The position numbers and the translations under genes were made by a program. From Rhodothermales bacterium (lineage in GTDB: Bacteria > Bacteroidota > Rhodothermia > Rhodothermales > UBA10348): a stretch of 64,000 nt of DNA. The notes below the pieces were generated by a model. It searched no databases and had not been told where the DNA came from. It saw nothing but the letters and a program-made list of their open reading frames with translations. The first letter of the stretch is position 1. Each line of letters begins with the position of its first letter. Location: the NCBI GenBank assembly GCA_040221055.1, contig JAVJVN010000014.1:301001-365000 (forward strand). The letters are read 5' to 3'. Shown here in pieces: positions 1 through 50,103 of this stretch.

Positions 1-2148
1 ATTGGCACGGAAGGTGCAGCTACGTTCCCGTTCAATGGCACAGAGGCTGATAAATCAGCGTGGTATACGGCGAATGCTGAATTGTGGGCAACGGGCCACG
101 TGGTAATCGAAGAAGGCGTAAGGTCGAATCGCGCGACGGTTAGTGTCACCCAGACCGGAGCCTACCAGAACCAGCCGATTCAGCTTGAGTCGCCGCTAAA
201 CACAACGCTTGAAGCCGTGCAGAGCACGACCAATCCGTCTCCCAAGCCGCTTCCTGCGGGCGTGGAGTCGCCCGTCGGATTCCTGCGATTCAATATCACC
301 AACGTTCAGAACGGTGCCGCGCGGGTCGCAGTGACACTTCCACCCGGCGCTACGGTGTCGGAGTATTGGAAATACGGTCCTCGCGTGGGAGCCAATGTTG
401 AATGTCCTGCCGCCGCCGCATCTGCCGCCAATAGCGCCTGTGAGAAGGGGAAGGAAGCCAACTGGTATAAATGGGACTACGACGAGGCCAAGGGTTACGG
501 CGCAAGGCAGGAGTCAATCCCAGGCGGCAAAGTACTCGCCTTGTACTTCAAGGATGGCCAGCTCGGCGACTTCGACATGGAAGTCAACGGCGTCATCGTT
601 GACCCGGGTGTGCCGGTATTCACGACCAATGTCGCTCCCGTCGTCGTATTGGACAGCGCAGTCGTTGTGGAAGACAACGCGGTCGATATCGACTTCCTGA
701 CCAATGATTCAGACGCTGATGGCGATGCGTTGGTCTATGCCATTACAACCGATCCTGCCAATGGTACATGGTCCGATAACGGTGACGGCACGGGTACCTA
801 CACACCGAACGCCGACTTCTTCGGCACGGACTCATTCACGTACACGATTGACGATGGCTACGCCAACGCTGAAGTTGGTACAGTGACTATCGAGGTGACC
901 GGCACGCCGGACCTTCCGATTGCCATTGATGATGCCGCAACGACCGCTTCGGGCGTCAAGGTGTCGGTGAATGTCTTCGCCAACGACTACGACCCGGACG
1001 GAGACGAGCCGTTCTACCTGTCGGCCATCAGCAATCCAGCGAACGGTGTGGCGGCTTTCATGTCGGATGGAACGGTGACCTACACGCCGAACACCGGCTT
1101 TGTGGGCCAGGACACGATAACGTATTCCATCACGGACGGCGTATCGGGCATCTTTGCGCAGGCTACAGTGTCGATCACGGTAACCGGTACCGCGGCAGGC
1201 CCCGTGGCGTCTGCTGATGTATCCACGACCGCCGAGGAAACGGCGGTCAATGTGGATGTATTGGCGAACGACATCAATCCGCAGGGAAATGCCCTGGCAG
1301 TCGCGTCGTTCACGCAGGGCGCCAACGGTACGGTCACGGCAGGAGAGGGCGGAACGCTCGTCTACACGCCGGCGGCTGACTTCAACGGCACGGACACGTT
1401 TACCTACACGGTCACGGATGGCGGAGTCACGAGCGGCGCGGTCACGGTTACCATTTCCGTTACGGCGGTGAACGATGCACCGGTCTTTGAGACCGGCGCT
1501 GCCATATCCGGTACGGAAGGTGGGGTCGTGATTGGCGGCGCGGTGCATCCAGAAGCATCTGAAGCCCAATATCAGGTGACGTTCTCTGGAACTGCCAGCG
1601 ACGTGGACGACGCGGAGCTGACGTACAGCTACCAGTTGGCCTCGCGGACAGACTTCACGGAAGTGCTCCTGACGGCACCCGCATCGGCCGAGGGAGCGTC
1701 CATTCCCTGGACGGACATCCTGGATGCGCTCGCCGCAGCCAATATGGTGCCCGGAGCCGAGATCACGATCGCCCAGCGCATGGTGGTGACGGATACCGGA
1801 GGACTTTCCGCACGCACGGAAGCCCAGGAAATCACGTTCATCCGCGGATTCATAACGGCCAACGGAGAGATCGGGGAGTTGCCGACGGAATACTTCCTTG
1901 ATGGCAACTACCCGAATCCATTCAATCCAGTGACGACCATTCGTTTTGGATTACCCGCATCGGGCGATGTCAGCGTGGTGGTCTACGATTTAATGGGTCG
2001 CCAGGTGGCCATGCTCGTTGCCGGCACGCTGCCGGCGGGTGTCCACGAGGTGCGGTTCGATGCGTCGAACCTGCCGAGCGGCGCGTACATCTACCGGCTT
2101 GCAACGCCTGCCGGGCAGTACGTCAAAACCATGATGCTGTTGAAGTAG
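1..2148 (+). CDS. T9SS-secreted surface protein with choice-of-anchor U and cadherin/Ig-like repeats (5' truncated)
   Basis: The reading frame is open to the first base of the window, so the true start lies upstream; the TTG at 82 is only the first start-like codon inside. Near 270-610 is a segment like the choice-of-anchor U domain (GFLRF..VTLPPGA..YWKYG). Three tandem cadherin/Ig-like repeats of about 95 residues follow (about 634-900, 901-1190, 1192-1476), each ending in a YTPxxxFxGxDxxTYxxxDG pattern. A fourth, divergent ectodomain runs to about 1850. The last 85 residues (from about 1894) are a Por/T9SS sorting domain with the NYPNPFNPVTTIRF signature. The protein should cross the outer membrane by type IX secretion and be attached or released at the surface. 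The repeats suggest adhesion or a structural role; no catalytic motif is visible. Confidence 0.85.
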   Translation: MGTEGAATFPFNGTEADKSAWYTANAELWATGHVVIEEGVRSNRATVSVTQTGAYQNQPIQLESPLNTTLEAVQSTTNPSPKPLPAGVESPVGFLRFNITNVQNGAARVAVTLPPGATVSEYWKYGPRVGANVECPAAAASAANSACEKGKEANWYKWDYDEAKGYGARQESIPGGKVLALYFKDGQLGDFDMEVNGVIVDPGVPVFTTNVAPVVVLDSAVVVEDNAVDIDFLTNDSDADGDALVYAITTDPANGTWSDNGDGTGTYTPNADFFGTDSFTYTIDDGYANAEVGTVTIEVTGTPDLPIAIDDAATTASGVKVSVNVFANDYDPDGDEPFYLSAISNPANGVAAFMSDGTVTYTPNTGFVGQDTITYSITDGVSGIFAQATVSITVTGTAAGPVASADVSTTAEETAVNVDVLANDINPQGNALAVASFTQGANGTVTAGEGGTLVYTPAADFNGTDTFTYTVTDGGVTSGAVTVTISVTAVNDAPVFETGAAISGTEGGVVIGGAVHPEASEAQYQVTFSGTASDVDDAELTYSYQLASRTDFTEVLLTAPASAEGASIPWTDILDALAAANMVPGAEITIAQRMVVTDTGGLSARTEAQEITFIRGFITANGEIGELPTEYFLDGNYPNPFNPVTTIRFGLPASGDVSVVVYDLMGRQVAMLVAGTLPAGVHEVRFDASNLPSGAYIYRLATPAGQYVKTMMLLK

Positions 2149-2162
2149 ACGGTTCGACGGCC

Positions 2163-2222
2163 GGAGCCGCCTCAGCCAATCTCAACCGATCGTCCGGTTC
2201 AGGTAGGCCTTGAGGCGGCTCC
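2163..2222. repeat. 12-bp perfect inverted repeat at convergent gene ends
   Basis: GGAGCCGCCTCA (2163-2174) and TGAGGCGGCTCC (2211-2222) are perfect reverse complements separated by 36 bases. The repeat sits between the convergent stops of the surface-protein gene and the dienelactone hydrolase gene and reaches into the last codons of the latter. It could form a long-stem RNA structure in either transcript. There is no U-tract, so intrinsic termination is only a possibility. Confidence 0.4.
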
Positions 2223-3003
2223 AGGCGTCTGCGGCGGGGGCGGTCCGGACGTCCGGATCTTCGTCGACCCGCAGCCAGAAACCGTGGTTGACGGCATCGT
2301 AGATGTGCAGGTCGTGCTCCACGCCAACCGAGTCGAGCGCGGCTTCGAAGCGGGCAACGCTTTCGGGAGCGGGTCCATTATCCAAGGCGGCAAATGTGCC
2401 ATAGACTTCGTGGTCCATGGTGGCGAGCACAGCCGGATCTTCAACCAGGCGTCCGTAGAAAATGGCGGTGGCGTCATGATCGTCTCCGTCCAGTCCGTAG
2501 GACAACACAATGCCGCCGCCGAAGCACCAACCCACGGTGCCGACCTTGCCGGTAACGTCGCCACGCGACTTGAGGCTGGCCACGGCGGCGTTCAGATTGG
2601 CGACTACGGCGGGCATGTTGCCCGTCGCTTCGGTCATGAGGGCCACGTTTTCTTCCCGGTTCGATCCCGTGCTTCCCCCGTACAGGTCGGCAGCCAGGGT
2701 GACGTAGCCCTCGGCGGCGAAATCATCGGCCATTTGCCGCACCCGGTCCGTCAGACCGTTCCATTCGTGGACCAGGACCAGCGACGGGAAAGGACCATCG
2801 CCTTCGGGCACGGCCAAATAGCCGGTCGTAGCACTGTCTCCATCCACGTAATGGAAGTCCTGACCCGTCAGGGCACCTCCTTCACCGATGATGGCCGGTG
2901 GCAGGTCCACGGCCGGTTCAATCGGGGTGTCCGGAGTCGGCTCAGCGCATGCACCGATGAAAAGGACCATCAGTAGGACAGCGATTGTTCGCAGGAGGGG
3001 CAT
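2182..3003 (-). CDS. Dienelactone hydrolase family lipoprotein
   Basis: Alpha/beta hydrolase of the dienelactone hydrolase family, 273 aa from the chosen start. The start at 3003 gives a clean lipoprotein signal (MPLLRTIAVLLMVLFIGAC) with Cys in a FIGAC lipobox; a longer frame back to 3138 adds an unlikely N-terminus, and 3027 is another option. The nucleophile elbow is GWCFGGG, with the Cys typical of this family instead of Ser. The catalytic His is in AVNHGFW near the C-terminus. Family members hydrolyse lactones or esters; the substrate here is unknown. The signal places it in the cell envelope, unlike the usual cytoplasmic enzyme. The gene diverges from nirK across about 240 bases. Confidence 0.85.
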   Translation of the reverse strand: MPLLRTIAVLLMVLFIGACAEPTPDTPIEPAVDLPPAIIGEGGALTGQDFHYVDGDSATTGYLAVPEGDGPFPSLVLVHEWNGLTDRVRQMADDFAAEGYVTLAADLYGGSTGSNREENVALMTEATGNMPAVVANLNAAVASLKSRGDVTGKVGTVGWCFGGGIVLSYGLDGDDHDATAIFYGRLVEDPAVLATMDHEVYGTFAALDNGPAPESVARFEAALDSVGVEHDLHIYDAVNHGFWLRVDEDPDVRTAPAADAWSRLKAYLNRTIG

Positions 3004-3242
3004 ATAAATGGGGACGAGCGAGGTCATGGGAGTCGGCACGGGTATGAGAACAGGCATGGGATCGGCAATCGGGAAAAAGGAGACGGAATTCGGGTTCTGG
3101 TAAATCGAAGTATCGCATATACGTACCCGGAATCGCAATCCATGTAAGCAAAATGCTCTGCGTTTGATTTTGGGTAAATTCGTTCATTGATTGGATTTGT
3201 GTATCCTCGTCGAACCCAGACACCTCCAATCCCGGTCCAATC

Positions 3243-4646
3243 ATGCCCCGTTCCGGCATCATTCCCATCGTCCTGTTGTTCGCCCTTACGTCGGTCCATT
3301 GCGGCCCGGAAACCCTGCAGGGCGAGGAAATCGCCCTACTGACATCCGCCCCGGCGGTGCCTCCGCCCATCACGCGATCGCATCCCACGAAAGTCATCGT
3401 GGAATTGGAGACCACCGAGGAAGTGGGCCGTCTTTCCGACGGCGTCGAGTACACCTTCTGGACCTTCGGGGGGGAGGTCCCGGGCAAGTTCATCCGGGTC
3501 CGGGAGGGAGACCTGGTGGAGTTCCACCTGAACAATCATCCGTCCAGCAAAATGCCCCACAATATCGACCTTCATGCCGTCACGGGACCCGGCGGTGGTG
3601 CAGCGGCATCGTTCACGGCACCGGGCACGGGAACGACGTTCTCGTTCACCGCCCTCAATCCGGGACTGTACATCTATCATTGCGCCACGGCCCCGGTGGG
3701 CATGCATATCGCCAATGGCATGTACGGACTTATCCTGGTCGAACCGAAGGAAGGATTGCCGCCTGTTGACCGGGAGTACTATGTGGTGCAGAGTGAATTC
3801 TATACCAGGGGCGACTATGGCGCACCGGGCCTGCAGCCGTTCGACATGGAAAAGGCCATTGAAGAAGATGCCGACTATGTGGTCTTCAACGGATCGGTCG
3901 GTGCACTGTCGGGGGACAATGCCCTGACGGCGAATGTCGGAGAACGGATCCGATTGTACGTCGGCAACGGCGGTCCGAATCTGATTTCATCGTTCCATGT
4001 GATCGGGGAAATTTTCGATAACGTCTATACGGAGGGGGGGACGGAGATCAACCAGCACAACGTACAGACCACCCTGGTGCCGGCCGGCGGGGCGGCCATG
4101 GTCGAGTTCACGGTGGATGTGCCCGGCAACCTGATCCTGGTTGACCACGCCATCTTCCGCGCGTTCAACAAGGGCGCCTTGGCCATGATGACCGTGCACG
4201 GCAATGAAAATCCTGACGTGTATTCAGGTCTGCAGGAAGAGACCGTGTATCTGCCGGAGGGCGGCGCCATCCAGGAGATGCCAAGCGCCGATACAACCGG
4301 CGGGGTAGCCCTGGACGAGGATCCGATGGTCGCCGGGGCCCGGCTCTTCGCATCCAATTGTGCGGCCTGCCATCAGCCCGAAGGCCAGGGTCTGGCCGGA
4401 GTCTTTCCACCGCTTGCCGGATCGGACTACCTGCTGCAGGATCCGACGCGGGCCATCAATGCCGTGGTACACGGACTGTCAGGCGAGATCGTCGTCAATG
4501 GGGAGACGTACAACGGCGTCATGCCCGGTGTCCGCCTGAGCGATTCCGAAGTGGCGGCCGTCATGACCTACGTGCTGAACTCCTGGGGCAACGATGGCCC
4601 GGAAATCACACCGATGGATGTGACGCGGGTGCGCAGTCAGCATTAG
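3243..4646 (+). CDS. nirK: Copper-containing nitrite reductase with C-terminal cytochrome c domain
   Basis: Reduces nitrite to nitric oxide in the periplasm. Two cupredoxin domains span about residues 50-330. Type 1 copper ligands visible by family pattern are His106, Cys147, His155 and Met160. Type 2 ligands are His111, His146 and His302, with catalytic Asp109 and His252. The [17 protein letters not shown] stretch is the class II (AniA-like) form. A linker (about 335-360) leads to a class I cytochrome c domain with CAACH at 373-377 and a likely axial Met427 (GVMPG). Fused haem-c NirK is known from a minority of bacteria, for example Ralstonia pickettii; the tethered haem should deliver electrons. 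The N-terminus is a signal peptide with Cys20, a poor lipobox. No NO reductase gene is in the window. The 3' end overlaps the convergent nitronate monooxygenase gene by 41 bases. Confidence 0.93.
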
Positions 4647-6060
4647 CACTGAGGACATCCAAGACGTCCAACGCCGAATACGAGAGGGATCCCGGCTTCT
4701 GGAAGTCCCCGATGAACCGGGTTTCGTCACCCAGCGTGACGATGGGGGCCTCCACATAGCCGTCCTTCCGGGGCTTGGCCATTCCGCCCGTCGCCAACAG
4801 GTTGTTGCACAGGCACGTCCGACCGGCGGTGTCGTCCGTAACGCCGCCTTTCCGGGCATAGTCGTCCACGGGCTCGGCCGGGCATCGGTATTCCATGCGA
4901 CCATCCTCCGTCACGGACAGGGTCCGGAGCAGGCCGACATCGCAGAGCCGGGGCCGTTCGGCGTAAACGTCCGGACGGGACATGGTGGCGGGCAAATCAA
5001 CCACCTTGAACGGAAACCCGGTGGGGGACGTGACTGGACTCGTGTGCACGACCCCTGTCGGTTGGTTGGAAATCCATTCCAGGGTCGCCGCCTTCAGCGT
5101 CGGCTCCATGCCGGACTCCTCACACAGGGCGAAGGCCGTTCCGACCTGAATGCCTGCGGCCCCTTCCGCCATCGCTTCGGCCAGACCACCCGGGCGGCCG
5201 AATCCCCCGGCCAGCCAGAACGGTTTTCCGAGGGCGCGCATGCCGGCAAGGTCCACGTCATCCTTGGGACCATAGATGGGTTCTCCGGCTTCGGAGAGGG
5301 TCAGTTTCCCGCGGGGAGGTGCATTGTGTCCGCCAGCCGTCGGACGCTCCACGATGAACCCGTGGATTTCACCCTCGCTGCGTTTCAGGAGCGCCTGCGC
5401 CAGAACAACGGATGACACGATGGGGATGAACTTCGGGCGTTTCAGCGGCCCCAACCGTTCCCGTGCGCCCGGAAATACACGCTCTGGGTCGAATGCGATG
5501 GTGGCATTGCCGCCCGCGACATCCAGCCGGTACTCGACGGGCTCGTGTCTGGCCAGGCGGTCCAGCAGCCCGGCGATCTGGGTCGGTATGCCGGCACCCA
5601 TCAGGACGTAGTCGACCCCGGCCAGCATGGCCCCGTAGAGCGACGCCGCGGTCGGCATCTGGATTTTTTCAAGCAGGTTGAGCCCCACTGGATTCCCATG
5701 ACCCCGTTTGGCCAGGTGGATTTCCACAAAGTTGCCCAACGCAGTCAGCCGGTCCAGGAAACGGGCCGGCTTGATGGTATACATGGGATGCGCCACGTAG
5801 GGCGTTCCTTCCTGACGTCCTCCCGGCACGAAATACCGGTCGAGGACGCCCCTGACCGGCTCGGCGAATGGAAACGCGGCGAGGGCCTGGCGCATGCGTT
5901 CCAAGGGATCGCCGTCCTGGAGGCGCGCCGTCAGCAAGTGGCTGATGCCGGTTCCGGAAACCACCCCGAGCTGTCCGCGGCCGGAAACGGCCGCCGCCAA
6001 TTGCCAGTTGGAAATGCCCACACCCATGCCGCCCTGGATGATGGAAGGAAAAGTGCTCAT
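4606..6060 (-). CDS. Nitronate monooxygenase (2-nitropropane dioxygenase) family protein
   Basis: FMN-dependent TIM-barrel enzyme, 484 aa. The start at 6060 puts the family N-terminus ([16 protein letters not shown]) at residue 2; the frame continues 12 codons further without recognisable sequence. The barrel carries QGGMG near the N-terminus, YVLMGAGIP, and [13 protein letters not shown] with the conserved active-site His, then [22 protein letters not shown] for phosphate binding of FMN. The C-terminal 130 residues extend beyond the minimal family and contain [11 protein letters not shown], whose cysteines could bind metal. Classic members oxidise alkyl nitronates to carbonyl plus nitrite; this longer subgroup is poorly characterised. 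It is the last gene of a minus-strand run starting at 10488. Confidence 0.85.
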
Positions 6061-6137
6061 CGGGATCCCAAGTATTGTGGAGTAAAAAGTCCGCAATACA
6101 ACGACGCATCACCACGAAGGTTGCACGCGTACCGGTC

Positions 6138-6860
6138 CTATCGGTACTCCGGGTTCGGGTGGTCGAATCGCTGCCCGGCATCCCAGGCCGTGCGCTGGTT
6201 TCCATGGGCCGGCACGCCGCCCGCATCCTTCAGCATCCGCGCCATGTGCATCAGATTCCACGTCATGAACGTGGTATTGCGCTGCGTGAACGCGTTGCCG
6301 AATCCGGCGCGCGTACCGTCGTCGAGCGTATCGCCATAGCTCGGGCCCGGACCGGCCTCGCCAATCCAGCCGGCATCGGCCTGCGGCGGGATGGTGTATC
6401 CAAGATGTTGCAGCGCATAGAGTACGCCCATGGACACATGCTTGATGCCGTCTTCGTTTCCAGTCACCAGACAGCCCCCGACCTTGCCGTAGTAGATGTA
6501 CTGACCCTTGTCGTTCGTCTGGGCGGACTGGGCATACAGCCGCTCAATGACCCGGGAGCACACTGAAGACCGTTCCCCGAGCCAGATCGGCGTGCCGAGA
6601 ACCAGAATATCGGATTCGCGGACAATGTCGAAGAGGGAAGGCCAGTCGTCTTGGTCGGCCCCGTGCTCGCGCATGTCCGGTTGGACGCCCGGTGCAAGAA
6701 CGTGGTCCACGGCCCGGATCCGCCGCACATTCACCCCTTGTTTCTCCATGATGCCCGCCGAAACGTCAATCAGCAGATCGGTATGCGACGGTTCGGGGGA
6801 GCGCTTGAGCGTGGTGTTGATGAATACGGCAGTGAGGTTGGAATAATCGGCCATGGTCAC
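6138..6860 (-). CDS. Flavodoxin-fold NAD(P)H-dependent oxidoreductase
   Basis: 240 aa with the flavodoxin-like fold: an N-terminal beta strand and phosphate loop (FINTTLKRSPEPSHTD) that should hold the FMN phosphate, DILVLGTPIWLGERSS as the second flavin-contact loop, and YYGKVGGCLVTGNEDG as the third. Relatives include WrbA-like quinone reductases and NADPH-dependent FMN reductases. It is likely cytoplasmic. ATG at 6860 or 6854 are both possible starts. The gene lies 77 bases upstream of the nitronate monooxygenase gene on the same strand, so the two flavoenzymes may be cotranscribed. The physiological electron acceptor cannot be read from the sequence. Confidence 0.8.
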   Translation of the reverse strand: MTMADYSNLTAVFINTTLKRSPEPSHTDLLIDVSAGIMEKQGVNVRRIRAVDHVLAPGVQPDMREHGADQDDWPSLFDIVRESDILVLGTPIWLGERSSVCSRVIERLYAQSAQTNDKGQYIYYGKVGGCLVTGNEDGIKHVSMGVLYALQHLGYTIPPQADAGWIGEAGPGPSYGDTLDDGTRAGFGNAFTQRNTTFMTWNLMHMARMLKDAGGVPAHGNQRTAWDAGQRFDHPNPEYR

Positions 6861-6896
6861 TTTTTCCTGCTTTTCCTCTTGGTGTCTGGACCCGAC

Positions 6897-7457
6897 TTAT
6901 CGTTTCACATGCTGTTCCACGCGTTGGAGCGCATCCCGGATATCCGACAGAAGGGCGATCACGGACGGATCGGACGACACAAGCGTTTCACCGGCCGACG
7001 CCAACGATCGTGCGTGCGAGGAGGGTACATCTCCCGCCAGCTTGTCCCGCTGCGCGATCACGGCTTCCTGGAAGGCATGCACATCCCGGATGCCGACCAA
7101 CTTGGCATCGGCCTGTCCCTGTGGGCCACTGCTGCCCGCCGTCTCGATCTGCAGGCTTGTAATGCCCAGCCAGCGCTGGAACGGACCGTGGTGCAGGCTC
7201 ATGTCCTGGATCTTGTCCAGCATGATGGTCTTGTCCTTCCGGAACACCACGCCACGGGAAATGCGCAGCCGCCGCTCGGTCAGTTCGCACCGGATGGAGT
7301 CGAAATAGCGCCCGGCCCACCACCACCCGGCGAACAGCCATATGGGCAGGATGGCAATGCCGATTACGCTGATGAACAGGATACCCAGGCTGCTCAGGAA
7401 CAGATACAGCTTGAGTTTGGTGTCGAACGTGGCTTTCGCCAGCACGGGTTCAGACAT
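6897..7457 (-). CDS. PH domain-containing membrane protein (bacterial PH, YdbS-like)
   Basis: 186 aa. Two adjacent hydrophobic segments span about residues 17-47 (LYLFLSSLGILFISVIGIAI and the following WLFAGWWWAG). A bacterial PH/DUF304 domain follows at about 50-130, recognisable from CELTERRLRISRGVVFRKDK and the TIMLDKIQDMSLHHGPFQR stretch. The C-terminus (about 140-186) is predicted helical with many charged residues and may form a coiled coil. Function is unknown; family members are thought to act at the membrane. It is spaced 36 bases from both neighbours on the same strand, consistent with an operon. Confidence 0.8.
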   Translation of the reverse strand: MSEPVLAKATFDTKLKLYLFLSSLGILFISVIGIAILPIWLFAGWWWAGRYFDSIRCELTERRLRISRGVVFRKDKTIMLDKIQDMSLHHGPFQRWLGITSLQIETAGSSGPQGQADAKLVGIRDVHAFQEAVIAQRDKLAGDVPSSHARSLASAGETLVSSDPSVIALLSDIRDALQRVEQHVKR

Positions 7458-7493
7458 GATGCACTCCGGATGGGTTTTCGCCGAAGATACGCG

Positions 7494-8027
7494 TCAGAGC
7501 GTGTACCGGACCTGCACAAAGCCGTTATCGGATGCGTCGCAGCCCGTCAAGGTGAGTTGCGCTTCTGGAATTCCCGAAGCAAACAGCGGAATACCGTCCC
7601 CCAGTACCACCGGAATGACGGTGATGGTGATGTCGTCAATCAGTCCGGCAGAGAAGAACCGCTGGATGGTCACACCGCCGTCAATGTACAGGTGCTGCTT
7701 TCCTTCGGCCGCCAGGGCATTCACGACCGTGGTCGGTTCGCCGGCCATGACGCGAACGTGGTCCGTCAAGTGCCGGGGGATGGACACGGCGCTGTCCGAA
7801 AGGACAACCAGAGGGGTACCGGCGTACGGCCAGGGTTCGAACGTGAGGACCTTTTCGAAGGTGTTGCGGCCCATGACGATCGTGTCGATGGTTCGGATGA
7901 AATCAGTGTACTGCACGCCTTTCATGGGCGACGCAGAATATTCGGGGCGGTGCAACCAGGAAATGTCACCGTCGGAACGGGCGATGTAGCCGTCCAGGCT
8001 GGTGGCGATGTAAACGGAACAGGTCAT
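7494..8027 (-). CDS. Dihydrofolate reductase (RibD C-terminal) family protein
   Basis: 177 aa. The start at 8027 is set by MTCSVYIATSLDGYIA, the usual N-terminal strand of this family, and by the ATGA overlap with the stop of the upstream GNAT gene. Visible motifs are SLDGYIAR, DTIVMGRNTFEKV (nucleotide contact), PLVVLSD, and HLYIDGGVTIQRFF with the GG that binds the NADPH phosphate. These proteins resemble DHFR and the reductase domain of RibD. Most stand-alone members have no assigned substrate, so neither folate nor riboflavin synthesis should be assumed. It probably uses NADPH in the cytoplasm. Confidence 0.85.
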   Translation of the reverse strand: MTCSVYIATSLDGYIARSDGDISWLHRPEYSASPMKGVQYTDFIRTIDTIVMGRNTFEKVLTFEPWPYAGTPLVVLSDSAVSIPRHLTDHVRVMAGEPTTVVNALAAEGKQHLYIDGGVTIQRFFSAGLIDDITITVIPVVLGDGIPLFASGIPEAQLTLTGCDASDNGFVQVRYTL

Positions 8028-9040
8028 GACTGCCAGATCATGTCGGTGGGGGATTCGTGCGCGAGATGGAATCCGAGCCGCCGCGCCACGGCCACGCTCG
8101 GGGCGTTGGCCGGATCGCATCGGATTTCAAGGGTCGTGAGGCCGGGCCAGGGTGTCGCCACACCCGGAATGGCGCGGATGGCCTCTGTAGCATATCCCTT
8201 GCCCGTGGCATCGTTCCGCAGCCAGTAGCCGATTTCCAATCGGTCCGCTTCAGAAATCCGGGTTCGGTGGTCCCGAGTCCGGGGGAACAGGCTGATTTCG
8301 CCGAGCGGCAATAGTGGGCCCTCTGCCTCGAATATCGCCCATCGGAATGCCTGCCCGGCGGCGAAATCCGCACGCCAGTCCGCAATCCGGGCTTCCAGTT
8401 CGGGGATCGTGCCCGGCCTGGAGACCCGTGCCGGGATCCATCCTGTCAGATGCTCCTGGTTCACGGCCAGGACACGGGCGAGCCCTTCGGCATGATGCGT
8501 GTCCCACGGACATAATAGAAGCCGGGAGGTCTCCACGAAGGTATTGAACGCCGGGCGCTCCATGTAGGTCAGATCGGGAAACACGGGCTCGTCGTGCGGC
8601 CGGGATTGCTCCACAAAGCCAAGGGCGGAATACAGCCGGATTGCGGCTTCGTTGGCCGGATCCACATTCAGGCTTATGCCGGACGCGCCCTGCTCCACGG
8701 CATGATCCATGAGCGCCATCACCAGCCGTCTCCCGAATCCCTGTCCGCGCAGGTCGGGCGCTACAATGAGCCGGCCGAGGTGGAAGCGATGCCTCTCCTT
8801 GCGGACCAATTGTCCGAATGCAACGAGATCACCTCCGTCCGTGTCACGGTGGCCGGTCGTGTTGTTTTCACGCCTTGCGCAAAATGCCAAGGATGTGTAC
8901 CGGTCAAAACCGATTTCTTCGGACAACTCCGCCAGGGTGAAGGGCCAGGAAATACGCGGGCCCGCCCAGCGTCGGCAATCGTCTTCGGATCCAATCCAGC
9001 CGGCAACGGTGGCGAGATCGGCGTGCGTGGCGGGACGCAT
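8024..9040 (-). CDS. Tandem GNAT acetyltransferase
   Basis: 338 aa made of two GNAT domains in one chain. The N-terminal domain (about 1-155) has the acetyl-CoA loop in VAPDLRGQGFGRRL and the late motif NEAAIRLYSALGF. The C-terminal domain (about 165-338) is of the RimJ/RimL type, with EIGYWLRNDATGKGYATEA and ANAPSVAVARRLGF. Both domains keep their CoA-binding glycines, so both may be active. It starts one base inside the stop codon of the upstream decarboxylase (TGATG) and ends with an ATGA overlap onto the DHFR-like gene, so translation is tightly coupled. The acceptor is unknown; an amine made by the decarboxylase is one possibility. Confidence 0.85.
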   Translation of the reverse strand: MRPATHADLATVAGWIGSEDDCRRWAGPRISWPFTLAELSEEIGFDRYTSLAFCARRENNTTGHRDTDGGDLVAFGQLVRKERHRFHLGRLIVAPDLRGQGFGRRLVMALMDHAVEQGASGISLNVDPANEAAIRLYSALGFVEQSRPHDEPVFPDLTYMERPAFNTFVETSRLLLCPWDTHHAEGLARVLAVNQEHLTGWIPARVSRPGTIPELEARIADWRADFAAGQAFRWAIFEAEGPLLPLGEISLFPRTRDHRTRISEADRLEIGYWLRNDATGKGYATEAIRAIPGVATPWPGLTTLEIRCDPANAPSVAVARRLGFHLAHESPTDMIWQS

Positions 9041-45022: not shown

Positions 45023-45325
45023 TCAGATATACTTCTCCCCGCGGACGACTTCGGCGTCCTGGACGTACACGATGACGGCGTAGTGCTCGAAATACGCATC
45101 CGACACATATTCCACGATGGCATCGGCCACGGCGGGGCTCACGAGCGTTTCAATACGGGTGTCGGGACCTTCCCATTCGTTCGCCCGGACGCCGCGCGAG
45201 CCTTTGCCCCTGGCTTGCGTGAGGGTGTACCCCGTGGCGCCAAGCGCCTCGATCTTGCGCAGCAACCGGTCCTCCAGGATGCGTTCGGTCACGATGGTGA
45301 CCAATTTCAGAATCGTCTTTGACAT
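45023..45325 (-). CDS. sbtB: P-II-like protein SbtB
   Basis: 100 aa. It follows the SbtB pattern: LKLVTIVTERILEDRLLRKI, GYTLTQARGKGSRG, RIETLVSPAVADAIVEYV and the C-terminal YFEHYAVIVYVQDAEVVR. SbtB proteins bind adenyl nucleotides (AMP, cAMP, ATP) and control the bicarbonate transporter SbtA. The C-terminal redox CGPxGC motif of some cyanobacterial forms is absent. One base separates it from the sbtA stop on the same strand, so the two are cotranscribed. A generic P-II (GlnB) assignment is unlikely because the T-loop Tyr motif is missing. Confidence 0.85.
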   Translation of the reverse strand: MSKTILKLVTIVTERILEDRLLRKIEALGATGYTLTQARGKGSRGVRANEWEGPDTRIETLVSPAVADAIVEYVSDAYFEHYAVIVYVQDAEVVRGEKYI

Positions 45326-45326
45326 G

Positions 45327-46268
45327 TCAAGCGGCCATCCAACCGGCCAGTGTGTAATACAACGGAATGCCCAACGTGATGTTGAACGGGAAGGTGATGC
45401 CCAGTGAAGCCGTGAGATAGAACGTGGGGTTGGCTTCCGGCAGGGCAATTCGGACCGCGGCCGGAGCCGCGATGTAACTGGCGCTCGATACCATGGCGCC
45501 CAGCACGGCGCATCCCGCCATGGACAGCCCGGTGAACCCACCCAGCCAAACCGCCAGTGCTCCGTGCAGGATGGGGACCAGGACGCCGAAGGCCACCAGG
45601 AACGGCCCGACCGTCCGCAAGTCCTTCAGGCGCCGTGCCGCCACGATGCCCATCTCCATGAGGAACAGCATGAGCGCGCCCTGGAATCCGGCCACGAAGA
45701 ACGGCTCCACCGGGGCCATGCCTGCCGGTCCCACGGCGAGGCCGATCAGCAGACCGCCCACCAACAAGATGACGCTCCGTCCCGAGAGTACCTCGTGCAG
45801 GGCCTCCTGCCAGGATCCCGCCCGTTTGTCACGGACAAAGGCCAGCATGAGGGCCACCACGATAGCGGGTACCTCGAGGATGGCGACCAGGGCCGGCATG
45901 TATCCTTCCGGCGCGTGACCCATCATGGTGCCGTAGCTGATGGCCACGATGAACGTGACGGCCGATACGGATCCATAGTGGGCCGCGATGGCCGATGCGT
46001 TCACCCGGTCGAACCGACCCAGTCGACGCAGGATATTGTAGGCAATGATGGGCGTCAGGATGCCCAGGAACAGCGTCAGACCGGCCGGCGCCAGGAACTC
46101 AAGGAACGGCGTCTTGGACAGTTCCACGCCCCCCTTCAGGCCGATGGCCAGCAGGAGGTAAATGGACAGGGCGTCATAGAGCGGCGTCGGAAGCCGGAGA
46201 TCGCTGCGCACCAGCGACGCGAACGCGCCGAGGACGAAGGCCAGAATGACCGGGGACAGGAGGCTCAT
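45327..46268 (-). CDS. sbtA: Sodium-dependent bicarbonate transporter SbtA family
   Basis: 313 aa, about ten transmembrane helices. SbtA/DUF897 features: PVILAFVLGAFASLVRSDLR, YLLLAIGLKGGVEL, IAAHYGSVSAVTFIVA, MEMGIVAARRL, and the C-terminal ASYIAAPAAVRIALPEANP and GITFPFNITLGIPLY. The two half-repeats contain the substrate and Na+ sites in cyanobacterial SbtA. The start at 46268 gives MSLLSPVILAFVLG, with helix 1 at the N-terminus. Outside cyanobacteria the family probably still takes up HCO3- (or another monocarboxylate). The directly linked sbtB supports the assignment. Confidence 0.87.
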   Translation of the reverse strand: MSLLSPVILAFVLGAFASLVRSDLRLPTPLYDALSIYLLLAIGLKGGVELSKTPFLEFLAPAGLTLFLGILTPIIAYNILRRLGRFDRVNASAIAAHYGSVSAVTFIVAISYGTMMGHAPEGYMPALVAILEVPAIVVALMLAFVRDKRAGSWQEALHEVLSGRSVILLVGGLLIGLAVGPAGMAPVEPFFVAGFQGALMLFLMEMGIVAARRLKDLRTVGPFLVAFGVLVPILHGALAVWLGGFTGLSMAGCAVLGAMVSSASYIAAPAAVRIALPEANPTFYLTASLGITFPFNITLGIPLYYTLAGWMAA

Positions 46269-46348: not shown

Positions 46349-46606
46349 TCAATCCCGTGGGATCCTCCGCAAGGTGCGAACAAATGAAAACGTAACGATC
46401 AAAACCGTGACCACGAGGAAAGTCGGCCACCACCAGCTCCAGAAGGTTTCTCCGACAATCGCCCAGGCTGTCCCGGAACCATCGCGGAAGAGGCCACCGG
46501 GATTCGACACCCAATCCAGCCCGGTAAACAGGCTGGCAACGGTGAACGCGATGACGGCCGCTGCCCATGCGGCGCGGCGTGCGGAGGTCATGATCGTACG
46601 GTTCAT
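46349..46606 (-). CDS. Small two-helix membrane protein, function unknown
   Basis: 85 aa, not recognised. Two hydrophobic helices (AAWAAAVIAFTVASLFTGL and TFLVVTVLIVTFSFV) are separated by a loop with SNPGGLFRDG and SWWWP; the ends are positively charged (MNRTIMTSARRA and RTLRRIPRD). The start at 46606 is chosen because upstream codons lie in the terminator of the beta-barrel gene. It may be cotranscribed with sbtA, 80 bases downstream. A role in transport assembly is speculation. Confidence 0.6.
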   Translation of the reverse strand: MNRTIMTSARRAAWAAAVIAFTVASLFTGLDWVSNPGGLFRDGSGTAWAIVGETFWSWWWPTFLVVTVLIVTFSFVRTLRRIPRD

Positions 46607-46682: not shown

Positions 46683-47309
46683 TCATCGGAAGGGATAGAA
46701 CGAGACGCCTACCGTCATGCGGACGCTGGCCATGCCGATGTCCACGCTGTTGTCCTGGTTGCCGACACTGCGGTCCGAAAGGTTGCCCGGTACAAACGAT
46801 GCCGCACCTTCCACCGCAAATTTCGGAGTGACAAAATACATGACTCCGCCACCGAAACTGCCACCCAGGCCACCGTAGGTCACCTCTGTGCCATTCGTGG
46901 TCTGGTCCTTTTCATAGATGACTCCCATGATGGCCAGGGAGGCGTCGGCAAAAGGGACCAGTCGTTCCTGGGGCCGGAAGTGGTAGCGACCGCCGAGTTC
47001 AAAGAATGCGACGCTGAATTCGTCGCCCGCTGCGAATTCCTCGAATTCCATGTCGCCTTTCATACCTGCGACTTCCATGCCCAGATACATCGTAAACCGC
47101 TTGTTGAAGCCGTAACCCAGGCGCAATCCGCTGCCCAAGCCTTCGCCGTCATCGTCGTTCTCGAAGGCAACACCGTGCCCGCCGGCTCGAATGTTCAAAA
47201 AGGCTCCGTGGGTGTTGGCGTCCGACTGGGCAACGACCATTCCCGGAGATCCTGCGAGCACGAGCAAGAGGGCTATGAAGGTTGCGTAGGGAATATTGAT
47301 ATGTTTCAT
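46683..47309 (-). CDS. Outer membrane beta-barrel protein
   Basis: 208 aa. Signal peptide MKHINIPYATFIALLLVLAG.. cleaved near residue 28 (VVAQSDA). The rest is a string of amphipathic strands with Gly and aromatic endings (GSGLRLGYGFNKRFTMYLGM, FFELGGRYHFRPQERLVPFADASLA, GGLGGSFGGGVMYFV, KFAVEGAASFVPG), closing in an outer-membrane type terminal strand MTVGVSFYPFR with a C-terminal aromatic pattern. It probably forms an eight-stranded OmpX/OmpW-like barrel. Function is unknown. Transcription should stop at the hairpin at 46616-46659. The 136 bases upstream, to the regulator gene's end, show no gene. Confidence 0.8.
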   Translation of the reverse strand: MKHINIPYATFIALLLVLAGSPGMVVAQSDANTHGAFLNIRAGGHGVAFENDDDGEGLGSGLRLGYGFNKRFTMYLGMEVAGMKGDMEFEEFAAGDEFSVAFFELGGRYHFRPQERLVPFADASLAIMGVIYEKDQTTNGTEVTYGGLGGSFGGGVMYFVTPKFAVEGAASFVPGNLSDRSVGNQDNSVDIGMASVRMTVGVSFYPFR

Positions 47310-47445: not shown

Positions 47446-50103
47446 CTAGAGGATGCCGGTTTCCCGGGCTTTGATGATGGCATCCGTCCGGTGGGATGCC
47501 TCCAGTTTGCCATAGATGTTGGCGATGTGCCGTTTTACGGTCGCAAGGCTGATGAACAGCTGATCGGCTATATCCTGATTGCGGAGCCCGGCTGCAATCA
47601 GTCGCAGGACTTCCAGCTCGCGGGGCGACAACAGGTCGGCATTGGTTCGCGTGGAGACATCCGGTTTCTCATCACGGGCCGTGAGTGCGCTCAGTACATG
47701 GATGGCATGATCCCGGCCGAGGCCCTTCGCCACCATATCCGGAAGCAACGTGCCCACCATGTCCGATTCCCGCAGGAACGGGGCAACAAAACCGTCCGGT
47801 GCTGCGCGATCCAAAGCGTCTGCCAGTCGCGTCCGGGTCTCCTCGGTATCACCCGATTCCCATGAACACCGTGCCTGCTGCAAATTCACGTCGACCAGCA
47901 ATCCCGTTCGACCACTTCGCTCCGCTTCATTGGCCAGAACGTCCAGGAGGTTGCGGACGTCTCCGATTCCCGACGCAAGGCACCAACGCGCGTATGCGGC
48001 CAGGTCGTACGCGGTCGAGAACGAAGGCGAGTCATCCAGGGAAAGACCGGACGCGCGGGCCCAGATACCGACCTCCTCCAGACGTCCTGCCTGGAGGAGC
48101 AGTCGGGCACGATGGGACGCAGCCGGCATCCACGACGGTATGCGTTCCGAAGCCGGTGCCGAGACGGCCTCGTCCATCACCGCTACCGCTCGTTCCAGAT
48201 CGCCACTGAGTGCAGCGATGTCTGCCTCGACTTGATACCATCGTGCACTGGCTCGTTCATACGTGCTGTTTTCCGTCATCAATGCCTCCGCGCCGACGAG
48301 GTCACCGCGTTCCAGCATCACGCGCGCCACGCCACGCCGCACGTCGGGTCCACCGGAATCGTAGTTGTCTGCTGCGGCCCGTTCGTAGGAAGCCAGACCC
48401 TCGGTCAATCGCCCCTGACACAGACGCAACTCGGCGAGTGCATAGTGACAACGCTGTGCATAGATGAGGTTGTCGGCAAACTCGAAGCGTTCCAAAGCCT
48501 CGGACATGGACGTCCATGCCTCATTCAGGTCCCCTCTTCGCCACTGCGCCAGTCCCAGGGTAACCAGCGGGATGGCCCGATAAAAATGATCATCCGGAGG
48601 GAGCAGCTCCAACGTTTTCCGGGCGTATTGCTCCGTCGCCTCGATATCGCCCTTGGCCTGCGCGAGATAGGCCCTGGCGGCGGCGATGGTGGCTGGCAAG
48701 GAGGCGTATTCGCGTTCGTCGGCTACGACAACCGGGACATCGGACGCGCGGTCGAGAAGGTCTTCCGCATGGTCCACCCATTTCTCAGCGCGATCAAATT
48801 GCAGCGTGTCCAGGAGTGCCCAGCCATAGCAGGCGCTCAGCACGGGACGACCGAGGATGATGTTTTCCGGAATGCACTCGGCCCACGAAAGCCACGTATC
48901 GGCCTGGAAACTCCGGTCCATTCGGCGCCACGAACGTTCTACAAGATCTGCGGCGTGTACGTTGTCCTTTGCGGCCAGCGCATGACGGATGGCATCGGCC
49001 TCGTGCCCCTCCGATTCGAACCATGCACAGGCCCGCCGGTGAAGGGCGGGCACAAGCACCGGCTTTTCTGATTGGAGCAAGGATGCCAGGACGTCGCCGA
49101 ACAAATGGTGGTACCGGTACCAGTACCGTTTATCGTCCAGGGGAATGACAAACAGTTGTTGCTGTTCAAGCATCGACAGGATGTCGGCACTTCCGGTTCG
49201 GTCCATGACGGCATCACAAAGTGGGCCACATAGCCGTTGCAGGTGGGCAGATTGAAGCAGGAACTCCCTCACCTCTACCGGCTGACCCTGCAGCACTTCC
49301 TCCAACAGGAAATCGGCGATGTATCGGTGGTCACCAGAGAAGGTCGACAGGAATCCATCCGTATCCTCCCGGCCCTGCATGGACAAAGCCGCAAGTTTCA
49401 ATCCGGCAATCCACCCTTCCGTGCGACGCTCCAACTCGGATATGGTCTGCGTTGAAACGGGTACCTGCACGGCGCCGGAAAAGAACTCCGCGGTTTCATC
49501 CACCGTGAATCGGAGGTCTCCGGCCGGAATCTCCGTCAGTTTACCCTGCCCCCTGAGTCGGGCCAGTGGCAAAGAGGGTTCTGCTCTGGACACGAGGACC
49601 AGGTGGAGATGGGGGGGCATTCGGTCGATGAAGAACGACATGCCCTCGTGGATCTCGGGGCGCTCAATGATATGGTAGTCGTCCAGGACAACGACCATGT
49701 CGCCCTGCACCGCATTGACATCATTGATGAGTGTCGAAAGAAAGGCTTGCGCAGGCAACGGCTCCAGAGAGTGCAGCATGGCCAACGCCAGATCGCCGAC
49801 GCCCTCCTCGAACCGTTGCAGCGCAGCCACGAAATAGGCCCAGAACAAGGACGGGTCGTTATCGGCTTGATCCAGGGACAGCCATGAGGCTTCTCCCTCC
49901 CGGGAATGGAGCCATTCGGCCAGGAGCGTCGATTTCCCCGATCCTGCCGGTGCGGAGACCAGGGTCACCGCGCCATGGACACCCGTGTCAATCCGATCGA
50001 CCAGGCGCGTTCGCTCCACCATCCCCTCCTTCCAGACCGGAGGATAGAATTTCGTGGACAGCAGCTGAGCCGTCTCGACCAAGTTGGGGTGGTTTCTGCG
50101 CAC
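47446..50103 (-). CDS. MalT-like LuxR family (LAL) transcriptional regulator
   Basis: 885 aa, the usual size for large ATP-binding regulators of the LuxR family. N-terminal STAND-type ATPase domain: Walker A APAGSGKSTL (GSGKST at 54-59), Walker B VVVLDDYHII. The central part (about 400-800) is helical TPR-like repeats. The C-terminal LuxR HTH (about 820-885) has LSPRELEVLRLIAAGLRNQDIADQLFISLATVKRHIANIYGK, beginning at SPRE. The model is ATP-dependent oligomerisation on sensing a small ligand, as with MalT and maltotriose; the ligand here is unknown. It is followed by the outer-membrane barrel gene on the same strand, a possible target. Confidence 0.88.
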   Translation of the reverse strand: MRRNHPNLVETAQLLSTKFYPPVWKEGMVERTRLVDRIDTGVHGAVTLVSAPAGSGKSTLLAEWLHSREGEASWLSLDQADNDPSLFWAYFVAALQRFEEGVGDLALAMLHSLEPLPAQAFLSTLINDVNAVQGDMVVVLDDYHIIERPEIHEGMSFFIDRMPPHLHLVLVSRAEPSLPLARLRGQGKLTEIPAGDLRFTVDETAEFFSGAVQVPVSTQTISELERRTEGWIAGLKLAALSMQGREDTDGFLSTFSGDHRYIADFLLEEVLQGQPVEVREFLLQSAHLQRLCGPLCDAVMDRTGSADILSMLEQQQLFVIPLDDKRYWYRYHHLFGDVLASLLQSEKPVLVPALHRRACAWFESEGHEADAIRHALAAKDNVHAADLVERSWRRMDRSFQADTWLSWAECIPENIILGRPVLSACYGWALLDTLQFDRAEKWVDHAEDLLDRASDVPVVVADEREYASLPATIAAARAYLAQAKGDIEATEQYARKTLELLPPDDHFYRAIPLVTLGLAQWRRGDLNEAWTSMSEALERFEFADNLIYAQRCHYALAELRLCQGRLTEGLASYERAAADNYDSGGPDVRRGVARVMLERGDLVGAEALMTENSTYERASARWYQVEADIAALSGDLERAVAVMDEAVSAPASERIPSWMPAASHRARLLLQAGRLEEVGIWARASGLSLDDSPSFSTAYDLAAYARWCLASGIGDVRNLLDVLANEAERSGRTGLLVDVNLQQARCSWESGDTEETRTRLADALDRAAPDGFVAPFLRESDMVGTLLPDMVAKGLGRDHAIHVLSALTARDEKPDVSTRTNADLLSPRELEVLRLIAAGLRNQDIADQLFISLATVKRHIANIYGKLEASHRTDAIIKARETGIL

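Follow-up and report, generated by a model that had tools for sequence, protein, structure and literature searches.

SbtA and SbtB have been studied in cyanobacterial carbon concentration, and also as crop-engineering tools. What would such a pair do in a Rhodothermales bacterium whose genome lacks RuBisCO? We addressed this question for a gene pair in a stretch of 64,000 nucleotides (the window, meaning the whole stretch of DNA that was analysed). The explanation that we favour, at a probability of roughly 0.62 for the whole, is that the pair forms a co-transcribed two-gene operon for regulated Na+-coupled bicarbonate import that feeds carboxylases, with SbtB serving as an adenylate-sensing plug. 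SbtA would be a trimeric elevator symporter that brings HCO3- in with Na+. SbtB would be a trimeric adenyl-nucleotide sensor whose T-loop blocks the inner opening of SbtA under an unfavourable adenylate state. Imported bicarbonate would pass to PEP carboxylase and biotin-dependent carboxylases, while the genome's beta- and alpha-carbonic anhydrases (CAs) would keep CO2 and HCO3- exchanging and antiporters encoded elsewhere would restore Na+.

The sbtA-sbtB gene pair

The initial annotation described an SbtA gene followed by SbtB at a distance of one base. Direct reading of the junction shows this to be exact, with the genes running in that order along the minus strand (Table 1). Within the window the pair stands alone. 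A gene that Pfam assigns to the FtsX/MacB permeases lies downstream in convergent orientation, and neither a CA nor an antiporter gene adjoins the pair. The short membrane-like ORF just upstream was considered as an SbtC-like candidate and is not counted in the system; a tblastn search at E 1e-3 returned no match to it in the fetched loci outside its own genome. The MalT-like regulator gene lies upstream of an OMP beta-barrel gene, for which tblastn likewise gave no match in the other loci fetched.

Table 1. Features at and upstream of the gene pair, in window coordinates.
Feature	Position	Strand	Remarks
sbtA-like gene, Sbt_1 (Na+-dependent bicarbonate transporter superfamily)	45327..46268	-	313 aa; Pfam and predicted fold
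sbtB-like gene, PII-like regulator	45023..45325	-	100 aa; Pfam P-II and predicted fold; no Cys
Junction: SbtA stop TGA (45329-45327), one base (45326), SbtB ATG (45325-45323)	45323..45329	-	Direct sequence reading
Membrane-like ORF	46349-46606		85 aa
OMP beta-barrel gene	46683-47309	-	
MalT-like LuxR-family regulator gene	47446-50103	-	885 aa

The assignments to SbtA and SbtB are supported by their domain scores, by structure prediction and by the conserved order of the genes. SbtA matches Pfam Sbt_1 (PF05982) at 384.4 bits against a cut-off of 27, over profile positions 1-307 of 308, and SbtB matches Pfam P-II at 79.6 bits against a cut-off of 25; NCBIfam has no family for either protein at E 0.01. 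AlphaFold models were built from alignments of 73 (SbtA) and 63 (SbtB) sequences, which drew on 72 of the 80 named SbtA loci described below and on 62 of the 63 SbtB stretches that these loci yielded. The SbtA model has a mean pLDDT of 95.1, and its first five PDB matches are all SbtA chains (7egl, 8zor, 7egk, 7cyf, 7cye; E 9.8e-16 to 1.4e-12), with TM scores by query length of 0.81-0.92 (0.92 for 8zor, 0.83 for 7egl) at 29-30% identity; bile-acid symporters follow. The SbtB model (mean pLDDT 90.6) matches 2cz4 first and then cyanobacterial SbtB. Compared with PDB sequences, SbtB scores 110.2 bits with 2cz4, 44-51 bits with SbtB and SbtB-like entries (3dfe being next) and at most 18.2 bits with canonical PII, so that by both sequence and fold it is closer to SbtB than to canonical PII.

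The pairing is conserved. We compared 111 loci: the window's own, the 30 best-scoring from a search of the phylum and the best 80 of at least 576 confirmed SbtA relatives from a scan of named genomes. A SbtB-like ORF is present in 88 of them, every one on the SbtA strand, and in 83 of those 88 the SbtB domain starts no more than 60 nt from the SbtA stop. This recurrence, together with models that match solved SbtA and PII-like chains first, rules out a chance juxtaposition. The 23 loci without a SbtB-like ORF include contigs that end beside SbtA (L048, L108). They also include a supported tree branch of six phylum relatives (L008, L021, L025-L028) in which SbtA is present and a SbtB-like ORF was not found. 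One other phylum relative (L030, positions 1-2439) has an SbtA gene on either side of SbtB, the first truncated by the start of the locus, an arrangement that looks like a transporter duplication.

Distribution and gene neighbours in other bacteria

Of 394 genomes from the phylum, 89 match PF05982, and the matches fall in 57 of 170 genera. The best 80 of the at least 576 relatives in named genomes extend over Rhodothermota, Balneolota, Bacteroidota, Deinococcota, Chloroflexota, Planctomycetota, Gemmatimonadota, Verrucomicrobiota, Myxococcota, Bdellovibrionota, Actinomycetota, Bacillota, Armatimonadota and Pseudomonadota. Some of the organisms, Thioalkalivibrio for example, are autotrophs, so not every such pair belongs to a heterotroph. 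Among the matches listed, the nearest named relative of the window's SbtA is from a Rhodothermales metagenome-assembled genome (MAG; 77% identity), and Balneola-type MAGs come next (67-68%). SbtA was found in 18 of 72,556 plasmid records, and a scan of viruses with SbtA found no encoded relative. On a Tritonibacter mobilis plasmid (L122, 1553-4137), an sbtA-like gene that has no annotated SbtB is followed by a DNA photolyase gene.

The initial annotation had presented the pair as out of place in a non-photosynthetic bacterium. It is not: Sbt_1 is widespread in the phylum, SbtA of heterotrophs is already in print, and such pairs are common outside cyanobacteria, which makes this one mostly ordinary. 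Passages of published work mention that many heterotrophs have SbtA-like proteins (PMC10117731), that SAR11 IIIa/LD12 carry Sbt-family genes, with CA and anaplerotic enzymes also noted (PMC10030771), and that toolkit genes occur in both autotrophs and heterotrophs (PMC10880623). A preprint title cited in PMC13360264 speaks of PII proteins as a valve plug for bicarbonate and ammonia in different bacterial phyla.

Flavobacteriia carry sbtA as well, and the portion of PMC5932025 that treats them describes a bias toward proteorhodopsin-bearing members. SbtA working with a rhodopsin in light-powered anaplerosis, as discussed for those Flavobacteriia, is however barely credible here. The window's genome has no rhodopsin match in a search that was positive in 17 of 60 members of the order, and we reject rhodopsin coupling for this genome on that basis. 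Among the 39 genomes covered by both searches, moreover, a rhodopsin accompanies 3 of 17 with Sbt_1 as against 9 of 22 without it.

We identified a beta-CA ORF in 17 of the 111 loci, and Pfam assigns all 17 to Pro_CA. In 15 loci no more than about 220 bp separate it from the SbtA or SbtB ORF (on the same strand in 12), and in the other two it is further off (1.6 kb in L053, 1.1 kb in L108). In L023 the CA and neighbour ORFs are 36 bp apart, a distance of 717 belonging to a partial domain. A fusion protein was considered for the L108 CA and rejected, as Pfam shows a CA domain only. The 15 loci come from Planctomycetota, Gemmatimonadota, Verrucomicrobiota, Sphingomonadales, a Hyphomonadaceae MAG, Pseudomonas and a phylum relative. 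By a rough estimate that assumes about two beta-CAs per 4000 genes, chance would produce a neighbour of this kind about once per thousand loci. The remaining 94 loci show no CA within the stretch examined, flanks being 1.5 kb or shorter in 31 loci. Among six other genomes of the window's family, for which 11-12 kb was read, two have a CA nearby: in G239 it lies 0.25 kb upstream of SbtA, in G179 about 2 kb downstream of SbtB. The codon-position-scored gene map misses genes, including the window's own SbtA and SbtB and those of some other loci, so its absences were not used and the four family genomes without a mapped CA are not firm negatives.

Sodium antiporters are a second kind of neighbour. 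Searches with a single NhaA query and a single CPA2 query placed antiporters beside SbtA in only 7 of the 111 loci. In five genomes of the order (f2), SbtAB sits between NhaA on its upstream side and a CPA2-type antiporter on its downstream side, and two further genomes of the order have one of the two beside the pair (CPA2 in G336, NhaA in G175). An NhaA homologue also lies 3.3 kb from SbtA in an Arthrobacter locus (L061), and an Acaryochloris plasmid carries sbtA near a cation:proton antiporter gene set.

This antiporter linkage, on the Acaryochloris plasmid as in the order, could mean that imported bicarbonate mainly helps to keep cytoplasmic pH and Na+ balanced in an alkaline or saline environment rather than serving carboxylation. 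We regard that as improbable. The window itself has no antiporter beside the pair, and a Na+ symporter that feeds carboxylases needs antiporters too, so that the linkage does not separate the two purposes. It does bear on the substrate: the adjoining beta-CAs, and the antiporters beside SbtAB in seven of the order's genomes, favour bicarbonate. The lack of either neighbour at the window's own pair, the 94 loci in which no CA was found and the low count of antiporter loci weigh the other way.

The SbtA substrate site and the SbtB ligand

In Synechocystis SbtA, bicarbonate has been placed at S114, Y140, S324 and S327 by docking backed by mutants, and each of the alanine mutants brought transport down to about 10-40% (Liu 2021, PMC8352866). 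The equivalent residues of the window SbtA are S102, V128, S264 and A267. Two of the four side chains are thus kept, which counts for bicarbonate, and the valine and alanine at the other two positions count against it.

These differences recur outside cyanobacteria. In an alignment with 113 non-cyanobacterial rows, the S114 and S324 positions are Ser in all 113, S327 is Ala and D325 is Tyr in all 113, and Y140 is replaced by Leu (54), Val (41), Met (16) or Ala (2). The three cyanobacterial rows have S, Y, S and S at the site and D at 325. The motif reads GSVS ... SxSYIA, with Val, Leu or Met for Tyr140, as against GAVS ... SSSDIS in cyanobacteria. The agreement is partly built in for 80 of the 113 rows, because these were retrieved by two peptide patterns; SASYIA forms part of one, and neither fits the cyanobacterial sequence. 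The same replacements appear in the 33 rows that were not selected by motif (the window, 30 phylum loci found by profile and two of 16 non-cyanobacterial plasmid records). In a tree built by a quick method without bootstrap, a long branch (SH-aLRT 100) divides the three cyanobacterial rows from the remaining 113. The window's SbtA groups with four others (SH-aLRT 99), of which three come from its own order and the fourth from a different order in its class. In a literature search that covered mostly papers outside subscription, no paper on this site difference came up, and among the papers listed only PMC8352866 joins SbtA with Tyr140 or Ser327.

The uniformly non-polar replacements of Y140 and S327, the tyrosine at D325 and the long branch would also fit a different substrate, in which case the substrate of this branch of Sbt_1 would be some other small anion, taken up with Na+ under the control of SbtB. 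The loss of two site residues does cast doubt on bicarbonate, as does a remark in PMC11890772 that a Microcystis SbtA-like protein seemingly fails to compensate for SbtA. We nevertheless consider another anion rather unlikely. The adjoining beta-CA genes described above speak against it, and in the small share of neighbours that was scanned, none that was annotated suggests another substrate. Support for bicarbonate also comes from the non-cyanobacterium Thiomicrospira pelophila, for which passages of PMC12628692 describe two Sbt proteins that rescue a CA-null E. coli and raise its internal dissolved inorganic carbon (DIC).

SbtB retains the phosphate-binding motif R43xxR46 as R44-G-V-R47. Among the 88 SbtB-like relatives R47 is kept in 75 and R44 in only 51, the latter counting against the explanation that we favour. 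With no cysteine, the window SbtB has no C-terminal CGPxGC R-loop, a trait of only some SbtBs; the pattern was found in none of the 88 relatives and in one of two cyanobacterial proteins tried as a control. The genome has a single SbtB-like match. The initial annotation suggested that the system could respond to cAMP or AMP, and the cAMP part of this is doubtful: a search limited to class III nucleotidyl cyclases gave no match in the genome and was positive in 5 of 14 control genomes. ATP, ADP, AMP or c-di-AMP are thus likelier ligands than cAMP. Inhibition of SbtA by SbtB is presumed here, and it counts against the favoured explanation that the in vivo effect of SbtB is disputed even in cyanobacteria (PMC8352866, PMC8438413).

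We tentatively suggest a wider picture, which we hold as clearly weaker than bicarbonate import for carboxylases. Non-cyanobacterial Sbt_1 could be a separate branch in which Tyr265 and Glu132 stand in place of the cyanobacterial Tyr140, Ser327 and Asp325. The site might then bind bicarbonate in a new way or hold another anion, and an SbtB without a redox loop might read energy charge and not cAMP.

Host genome and comparison with known systems

The initial annotation had proposed anaplerotic carboxylases as a destination for the bicarbonate and named a Calvin cycle and CAs as things to look for in the genome (3.32 Mb in 22 contigs, 99.52% complete). A search for RuBisCO_large returned no match and was positive in 5 of 14 control genomes; we call the bacterium a heterotroph in the sense of this missing RuBisCO, from a search aimed at the Calvin cycle. 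Carboxylases to feed are indeed encoded: the bicarbonate-using PEP carboxylase appears as one frame in three matched pieces, and the biotin carboxylase C domain has three matches on two contigs. One beta-CA and one alpha-CA are present. Read by eye, the alpha-CA frame shows a hydrophobic segment close to its start, with a lipobox-like AAGC at the end of that segment, and the enzyme may therefore be a lipoprotein located outside the cytoplasm.

SbtAB is known from cyanobacterial CO2-concentrating mechanisms, and a role in an autotrophic mechanism of that kind was considered for the window's pair. Such a role is very unlikely, and we set it aside because the searches for RuBisCO and DabA gave no match in the genome. 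Regulated bicarbonate import that feeds carboxylases remains our preferred reading.

The genome's beta-CA lies about 94 kb from the pair. It stands beside a CPA2-type antiporter homologous to the CPA2 that flanks SbtAB in relatives, with a SulP transporter about 3.4 kb away. The minus-strand run at this site (L124, C14:246000-258000, positions 958-8657) comprises the CPA2-type antiporter, the beta-CA, a 448-aa protein, a DUF1028/hydrolase protein and the SulP transporter, and is possibly a second inorganic-carbon cluster.

The closest characterized counterpart of the pair is SbtA-SbtB of Synechocystis sp. PCC 6803 (7cyf, 7egk, 7egl, 8zor). The two systems share the gene pair and its order, both folds, the S114 and S324 equivalents and RxxR at the base of the T-loop. 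They differ in the low identity of the window SbtA (29-30%), the replacement of Y140 and S327, a T-loop in the window SbtB about five residues shorter by pairwise alignment, the missing R-loop and a genome without RuBisCO. Judged by these sequence features, with two of four site residues replaced, no R-loop and no class III cyclase found, the pair is not of the cyanobacterial form. Cyanobacterial SbtA2-SbtB2 (SbtB-like), known here by description, has a regulation that a review calls unresolved.

The closest solved relative of the window SbtB is TTHA0516 of Thermus thermophilus (2cz4), with 55% identity, a TM score of 0.89 and a match that reaches the C-terminus. Its deposit, released in 2006, calls it a putative PII-like signaling protein and not SbtB. 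A Meiothermus SbtB encoded beside SbtA (L036:4954-5241) scores 135.9 bits with 2cz4, which is thus probably, to judge from sequence, an SbtB of the non-cyanobacterial kind. Four papers returned in a literature search for TTHA0516/2CZ4 were all unrelated.

Likened by description, the Sbt genes of SAR11 IIIa/LD12 and Flavobacteriia and Sbt/Sbt-CS of T. pelophila are further non-cyanobacterial members of the family. DIC transport has been shown for T. pelophila, which, unlike the window's bacterium, is an autotroph. The main text of the T. pelophila study (PMC12628692) makes no mention of SbtB, which in the SAR11 paper (PMC10030771) appears only in a cited title. GlnK-AmtB, a likeness drawn in PMC8352866, offers an analogous PII plug of a transporter, but it involves another transporter family and a canonical PII, a class that scores low against the window SbtB. 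The window's pair is one of many and belongs to a module at home outside cyanobacteria, sometimes next to CA or sodium antiporters. Compared with the cyanobacterial systems, such pairs would offer a simpler setting for SbtB sensing, as RuBisCO is missing and, in this genome, no class III cyclase was detected. They would also allow a natural test of the binding-site residues that bicarbonate transport needs.
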